41,855 nt of DNA, from positions 1-41,855 of the forward strand of contig JAHEDT010000006.1 of the NCBI GenBank assembly GCA_024641085.1. The letters run 5' to 3'. A program made the translations under genes and the position numbers. Each line of letters opens with the position of its first letter. Within the stretch, counting starts at the first letter, position 1. Of this stretch, positions 28,265 through 28,675 are shown piece by piece. Under the pieces are notes generated by a model, which worked only from the letters and a program-made list of their open reading frames with translations, did no database searches and was not told the DNA's origin. The stretch is from Geobacteraceae bacterium (lineage in GTDB: Bacteria; Desulfobacterota; Desulfuromonadia; Desulfuromonadales; BM103).

Positions 28265-28675
28265 ATGCGTCACGGTTCTCTAGCTATCTGTGCCGTTCTT
28301 ATGGCCGTCGCCCTGCTTCTCGGCTCAGGTTTTGCCGCACGTGCTGACAGCGTGCCGCGCATGTCCACCGATGAACTCAAGTCACGGCTCGGCGATGCCG
28401 ACCTGGCGGTGCTCGATGTGCGCACCGACTGGGACTGGAATCAGTCGGCTGAAAAGATCGCCGGTGCCAAGCGCGTCAACCCCGCGGCAGTTGAAGAGTG
28501 GGCCGGCAGTTATCCGAAGGAGGGAACGCTGGTTCTCTACTGTTCCTGAATGAACGAAGCGACCAGTGCCAGTGTGGCACTGACATTGATCAAGCTCGGA
28601 TACACCAGGGTTTACGCGCTCAGAGGTGGTTGGCATGAGTGGCAAAGTAAAGGCTATCCGGTAGAGCCAAAGTAG
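28265..28675 (+). CDS. Exported rhodanese-like sulfurtransferase, predicted selenoprotein (Sec95)
   Basis: Read to the first stop the frame ends at TGA 28547-28549 after 94 residues, in the middle of a rhodanese domain. In the same frame the domain continues for 41 codons (MNEATSASVALTLIKLG, then YALRGGWHEW) to TAG 28673. Relatives have YC-x-C-P-N-E-A at this point; here it is YCS, TGA, MNEATSA, so TGA replaces the second Cys. A SECIS-like hairpin follows at the correct distance (28564-28582). I therefore read TGA as selenocysteine 95 of a 136-residue protein. Residues 1-28 are a signal peptide with an ARA-type cleavage site, placing it in the periplasm. The alternative is a nonsense mutation. 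Confidence 0.8.
28564..28582 (+). promoter_or_regulatory. Predicted bacterial SECIS element inside the rhodanese gene
   Basis: CAGTGCCA (28564-28571) pairs perfectly with TGGCACTG (28575-28582), leaving a GUG loop (28572-28574). The loop begins 22 nt after the TGA. Bacterial SECIS hairpins recognised by SelB lie within the coding sequence just after UGA, with the apical loop about 16-37 nt away and a G among the first two loop bases. All these conditions are met. Confidence 0.75.

Follow-up and report, generated by a model that had tools for sequence, protein, structure and literature searches.

A probable selenocysteine residue in the active-site loop of a predicted exported rhodanese from a Geobacteraceae bacterium

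Introduction

Does the TGA codon that interrupts a small rhodanese gene of a Geobacteraceae bacterium end the protein, or is it read as selenocysteine (Sec)? The question is raised by a locus on contig JAHEDT010000006.1 (assembly GCA_024641085.1), of which a stretch of 41,855 nucleotides was analysed; this whole stretch is referred to below as the window. An initial annotation, made from the sequence letters, proposed that translation through the TGA yields a periplasmic selenoprotein with a Cys93-Ser-Sec95 site.

Rhodanese-like selenoproteins have been catalogued before. The accessible passages of four papers name a rhodanese-like domain with Sec from a marine deltaproteobacterium (PMC8318568), a Sec-containing sulfur transferase in Geobacter sulfurreducens (PMC1242214), a CxU form of COG0607 in a list of selenoproteins (PMC9312934) and, for the family NF041203, a 'Rhodanese-like domain-containing protein form 3' with a CxU motif and one Sec (PMC13188914). 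NF041203 is carried in NCBIfam release 20.0 as rhodanese_LYCAU, 'rhodanese-related (seleno)protein'. The window gene belongs to this already catalogued family, and the idea of a Sec-containing rhodanese is not new.

The gene and its predicted product

The features considered here, all on the forward (+) strand, are as follows.

28265-28675, +: predicted Sec-rhodanese gene; 136 codons through the TGA, then TAG; matches to NF041203 and Pfam Rhodanese
28265-28345, +: predicted signal peptide, residues 1-27, judged by eye (hydrophobic core, ARA then D)
28541-28543, +: codon TGT of Cys93, the CxU partner residue; TGA in 12 double-Sec relatives
28547-28549, +: UGA codon, predicted selenocysteine 95, where rhodaneses have their catalytic Cys; same position in homologues
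28564-28582, +: candidate bacterial SECIS-type hairpin; core stem 28566-28570 / 28576-28580, loop AGTGT 28571-28575

The frame starts with ATG at 28265, meets the in-frame TGA at residue 95 and closes with TAG at 28673-28675. Past the TGA it stays open and reads MNEATSASVALTLIKLG, continuing to the ending RGGWHEW. The coordinates of the initial annotation (TGA 28547, the same frame to TAG 28673, 136 residues) were all reproduced, and the truncation that it expected of a gene caller is seen in the plain ORF listing, which gives a 94-residue product ending at the TGA. Residues 34-128 of the read-through product match Pfam Rhodanese (PF00581, E 1.5e-15), and the gene of a same-genus relative, at 81% identity, has a TGA at the identical position; together, these observations put the read-through frame far beyond chance. 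The product scores 162.9 bits against NF041203 (cut-off 115; profile positions 5-126 of 126) and 155.4 bits in six-frame translation, and residues 91-95, LYCSU, contain the LYC-x-U motif of that family. This score supports the selenoprotein reading. TGA ends six of the eight neighbouring ORFs checked and is therefore an ordinary stop there, so that the code as a whole is not reassigned, and a reassigned genetic code was ruled out on this ground.

The proposed N-terminal export signal agrees with the hydrophobic N-terminus, as judged by eye. An N-terminal helix spans residues 4-20 in the AlphaFold model at low confidence, and seven of the 49 CxU rows described below agree with a crude lipobox pattern. 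An Rfam scan of the window gave no match at gathering scores, the promoter and terminator scan returned nothing useful, and the plasmid search returned 32 records, every one below 60% identity.

Conservation of the in-frame TGA

The relatives search covered 58 genomes, that of the window included, with a rhodanese match threshold of E 0.001. A rhodanese match of some kind was obtained in 56 of them, and in 23, again including the window's own genome, the best match has a TGA at the same place. A phylum sample of 395 genomes was searched with NF041203, which matched at E 1e-25 or better in 72 and above the family cut-off in 61. Among the 101 matches listed, 89 contain at least one TGA, 11 have no stop and one has a TAA only; the position of the TGA was checked only in the individually read rows. 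The rows read with a TGA at this place number 61, namely 49 CxU rows (23 from the relatives search, the window gene among them, and 26 from the phylum sample) and 12 UxU rows. Rows L040-L046 lie outside the motif, the three of them that were read being plain rhodaneses without it, and rows L126 and L133, which contain no readable domain, were dropped. A search with the read-through protein returned one relative, L055, a Desulfuromonadales MAG.

The initial annotation placed the TGA at the second Cys of a YCxC loop. Alignment of the homologues agrees: the loop reads YCxU, the TGA position being occupied by putative Sec in the CxU and UxU members and by Cys in two CxC members (L124 and L125), which read YCSC with the codon TGC and are the only two such homologues found, in two genomes. 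The active loop and the RGGWHEW end, both described earlier as intact, were likewise borne out. Over the 41 codons after the TGA, the window gene and that of the same-genus relative gave dN 0.077 and dS 1.106; with dN this far below dS, the downstream part is under protein-level selection. Among the orthologues, sequence is conserved both before and after the in-frame TGA. After the TGA, dN was also below dS in seven of eight further pairs, L025/L027 being nearly identical and uninformative, and the 18 codons before the TGA, a small sample, gave less clear ratios in some pairs.

These data bear on two other explanations. If the gene were a pseudogene or the product of a sequencing error, a normal CxC rhodanese would have acquired the TGA by a recent nonsense mutation or through a miscalled base, which would fit the ending of the standard ORF at the TGA and the failure to find selC in the assembly (see below). 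Against this, the relatives search found a TGA at the same codon in 22 more genomes, and the phylum sample added 26 CxU and 12 UxU rows that have it; dN after the TGA is far below dS, and the hairpin described in the next section covaries. Conservation across dozens of genomes in effect refutes a nonsense mutation or an error, and we give this explanation almost no weight. The second explanation is a real stop followed by reinitiation, by which the downstream part would be a second peptide made by coupled translation; it draws on the sequence TGAATG at 28547-28552, where an ATG lies next to the TGA in the window. However, the next codon is ATG in three of the 49 CxU rows (L017, L019 and L033) and GTG in four (L020, L021, L022 and L102), the rest being mostly codons for Pro, Gly, Ala and others, and a peptide starting at residue 96 would hold no more than the rear part of the fold, severed at the active-site loop. 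On these counts reinitiation at the adjoining ATG was rejected, and its probability is negligible.

A candidate SECIS-type hairpin

With the T of the TGA taken as base 1, the candidate hairpin pairs bases 20-24 with bases 30-34 around a five-base loop, which starts at the 22nd base after the TGA. Pairs 20-34, 22-32, 23-31 and 24-30 form in all 61 rows and pair 21-33 in 60 of the 61, the outer pairs being weaker (18-36 in 42 of the 61 rows, 19-35 in 20). Both bases of pair 21-33 are third codon positions, and the pair shows T-A/C-G compensation at synonymous sites: the 60 distinct rows comprise 38 T-A, 16 C-G, 5 T-G and 1 C-A, so that 59 are paired. None of 20,000 column shuffles, which ignore relatedness, equalled the pairing at this position. 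The hairpin was looked for in eight of the ten non-Sec rows (all but L134 and L135), and these homologues (two CxC, four CxS, one SxS and one CxA) retain one to three of the five core pairs.

In bacterial SECIS elements one of the first two bases of the loop is, as a rule, a G, and the loop AGTGT of the window has a G in second place. Folding energy by itself is a weak signal for a SECIS element: synonymous shuffles of the stretch after the TGA gave mean z values of -0.95 and -0.82 with two codon pools, two of four control windows gave -0.55 and -0.40, and the window's own sequence gave -2.33, with 5 of 200 shuffles folding equally well. In the UxU genes the loop of the shared hairpin begins at the 22nd and 28th base after the two UGAs, and one hairpin would serve both.

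Selenocysteine machinery in the genome

The genes selA (618.9 bits), selB (397.5 bits) and selD (380.2 bits), each above its NCBIfam cut-off, form a cluster on contig C146 of this genome. The selD gene (L047:6435-7466, minus strand) carries an in-frame TGA of its own, in the N-terminal sequence SKSSGUAAK, and is likely to be a second Sec gene of this genome. As to the tRNA, selC was not found in the 151-contig draft by Rfam, ARAGORN, blastn or a 13-mer search. The Rfam model RF01852 gave 11 matches in the genome, of which the one above the cut-off is tRNA-Trp by ARAGORN and seven further loci are tRNA-Ser, -Leu, -Gly, -Tyr and -Thr. On the sel contig, neither Rfam nor ARAGORN detected a tRNA, the four weak Rfam matches including no tRNA-Sec. 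A blastn search of the genome with a relative's selC returned nothing, and the anticodon-arm 13-mer common to the selC rows of 13 relatives is absent from it.

A tRNA-Sec match of at least 68 bits is present in 49 of the 58 genomes, the window's own and the same-genus genome being among the nine without one. In two relatives, G012 and G014, the gene immediately before selC is one that we presume to be yedF. A yedF of the G012/G014 type was not found in the window's own genome either, which suggests that a stretch was lost from the 151-contig assembly rather than that the Sec system is absent. In G012, selC is closely followed by an ORF that by eye resembles an integrase (L085:1501-2794); it may mark a genomic island, which would explain why the selC stretch drops out of drafts. 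Among carriers of the TGA gene, selB scores above the cut-off in 21 of 23 (G009 and G021 being those without), compared with 33 of 35 non-carriers; selB thus does not tell the two groups apart, and its correlation with the gene is uninformative. The initial annotation held that a genome without selB and selC would count against its reading; selC was not found in this draft, but selA, selB and selD are present.

The recoding of UGA 95 is strongly supported by these comparisons: SelB and tRNA-Sec would recode the codon as Sec, aided by the downstream SECIS hairpin. We conclude that the gene very probably encodes a small, exported rhodanese-fold selenoprotein of family NF041203 with Sec at codon 95.

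Active site and fold

In a 37-row alignment in which Sec was written as C, the invariant columns include D51, R53, Y92, residue 93, residue 95, E98 and S101. A profile built from this alignment matched 6mxv with no gap and Escherichia coli GlpE (1gmx) with a two-residue gap, and in both cases residue 95 falls on the loop Cys, which we take to be the catalytic Cys of both proteins. The AlphaFold model (mean pLDDT 88, and at least 94 per ten-residue block from residue 31) shows a strand at residues 88-92, followed by residues 93-95 and a helix from residue 96; most of its top-ranking Foldseek hits in the PDB are rhodaneses. From the position of residue 95 on the catalytic Cys and its placement in the model, Sec95 is most likely the nucleophile and Cys93 an added partner. 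Cys93 was rejected as the rhodanese nucleophile, since the profile alignments place residue 95 there. The Cys93-Ser-Sec95 site of the initial annotation therefore stands as a conserved pair and is amended in its roles, Sec95 holding the catalytic position and Cys93 being its added neighbour.

In bacteria generally, Sec decoding competes with termination. Hence the 94-residue form might be the one mainly made and serve as a distinct product, the longer form appearing only when selenium is plentiful. Such a short form would be without the helix that follows the active site and the last strands (residues 96-135), and we consider regulated termination of this kind very improbable.

Relation to known rhodaneses

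Compared with the predicted selenoprotein of the window, other NF041203 members have the same length range, CxU motif and rhodanese domain, and nothing sets the window gene apart; its motif is C-S-U-M-N-E, and many members have C-A-U-P-N-E. With GlpE (1gmx), likewise a single-domain rhodanese, it shares the fold (Foldseek E 1.1e-05) and the position of the catalytic residue. It differs from GlpE by an insertion, in the alignment, of two residues ahead of the catalytic position, by an additional chalcogen at -2, by predicted Sec in place of Cys and by a predicted N-terminal export signal. TsoB, a rhodanese/DsbD fusion selenoprotein (NF045694), also combines a rhodanese domain with Sec, and its motif is given as UxxxxU in the available part of PMC13188914. 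The window protein scores 40.8 bits against NF045694, for which the cut-off is 805, and is not TsoB; motif and architecture differ. The polysulfide-sulfur transferase of Wolinella succinogenes (1qxn) is a single rhodanese domain of similar fold (E 1.4e-05). We take the latter protein to be periplasmic, with Cys rather than Sec and without a CxC or CxU pair.

Motif variants and cytochrome fusions

In 12 rows (L094, L100, L104, L115 and L116-L123) the motif reads YUxU instead of YCxU. All 12 listed rows with two TGAs were chosen deliberately and read, and all proved to be UxU; because of this choice, 12 of 61 is not a frequency. Exchange between CxU and UxU needs seven changes on the tree, at least six of them by well-supported branches; the tree rests on a short alignment with many open forks and unsettled bootstrap values, and the CxS, SxS, CxA and plain rows were left out of it. 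The 12 UxU members support the view that the partner residue at position 93 would matter.

In rows L127-L131 (group f31; genomes G424, G270 and G352), CxS or SxS replaces CxU. G270 and G352 also hold a Sec-bearing member of the family, and these five rows are likely to represent inactive or changed copies.

In four members (L136, L137, L138 and L141), found among ten stretches chosen mostly for long frames, the rhodanese is joined to a C-terminal octaheme cytochrome c domain, which carries eight CxxCH motifs; three of these members have UxU and one CxU. The C-terminal domain of L138 matches PF13447 (E 3e-21) and structures of hydroxylamine oxidoreductase (best E 9.5e-22), and scores 57 bits against hydrazine dehydrogenase, far below the cut-off of 900. 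These octaheme cytochrome fusions favour periplasmic redox chemistry. The open-access passages searched contain no mention of a UxU form or a cytochrome fusion of NF041203, and the recurrent UxU variants and four octaheme fusions are possibly new by-products of this analysis.

At L109, the sole case in 53 loci scanned, a separate ORF with seven CxxCH motifs lies beside the CxU rhodanese gene. L142 and L143 each have a frame with membrane-like segments that ends in a CTU rhodanese; we presume that this may be a DedA-type fusion.

Possible function and mechanism

Several roles can be considered for the predicted selenoprotein. Exported CxU and UxU pairs are expected to be strong ligands of soft metals, and the protein might use its CxU pair to bind or detoxify soft metal(loid)s, mercury and selenite among them. 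Four neighbouring ORFs were searched against NCBIfam; two gave no match and the two that can be named are an acyl-CoA ligase and LeuC, which speaks against metal binding, a role that we hold to be improbable. None of the four hints at a substrate. Of the 23 loci from the relatives search, 11, that of the window among them, have a leuC gene immediately downstream, and we take this adjacency to reflect inherited gene order and not function.

A thiol-disulfide or peroxide oxidoreductase, acting through Cys93-Sec95 with no sulfur transfer, would suit the CxU/UxU exchange at position 93 and the octaheme fusions, both of which fit electron transfer. It is also in line with the argument, made in the accessible part of PMC9312934, that most uncharacterised predicted selenoproteins are very likely redox in function. 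The invariance of the rhodanese-site residues D51, R53, E98 and S101 across the 37 rows, together with the occupation by Sec95 of the place of the sulfur-carrying Cys, argues against this reading, and we consider a pure oxidoreductase possible, at well under an even chance.

The reading that we tentatively prefer, while putting it somewhat short of an even chance, is a redox-active rhodanese in which Sec95 takes up the chalcogen, Cys93 resolves the intermediate and a donor re-reduces the pair. In the periplasm, Sec95 would attack a substrate with sulfane sulfur or a similar chalcogen and hold it as an Se-S species. Cys93 would then resolve this species, with release of sulfide or transfer of the sulfur, leaving a Cys93-Sec95 selenenylsulfide that a periplasmic electron donor would reduce. 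The protein would accordingly act as a redox-active sulfane-sulfur reductase or transferase rather than as a plain transferase. A broader proposal, which we regard as rather unlikely, is that the family forms a dedicated periplasmic chalcogen redox module whose pair at positions 93 and 95 switches repeatedly between CxU and UxU under one SECIS element. In some lineages the module would be linked to an octaheme cytochrome resembling hydroxylamine oxidoreductase, as donor or acceptor of its electrons, and would constitute an undescribed enzyme.

Conclusions

If the broader proposal is true, the family would provide a new redox enzyme for a sulfur (or selenium) oxyanion or polysulfide. The analysis confirms that seeming pseudogenes of this type are real genes, halved by simple gene callers. 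A predicted Sec nucleophile with an adjacent Cys or Sec, together with the multihaem fusions, would make an uncharacterised family testable, and with it the idea that the rhodanese fold may serve periplasmic redox chemistry.
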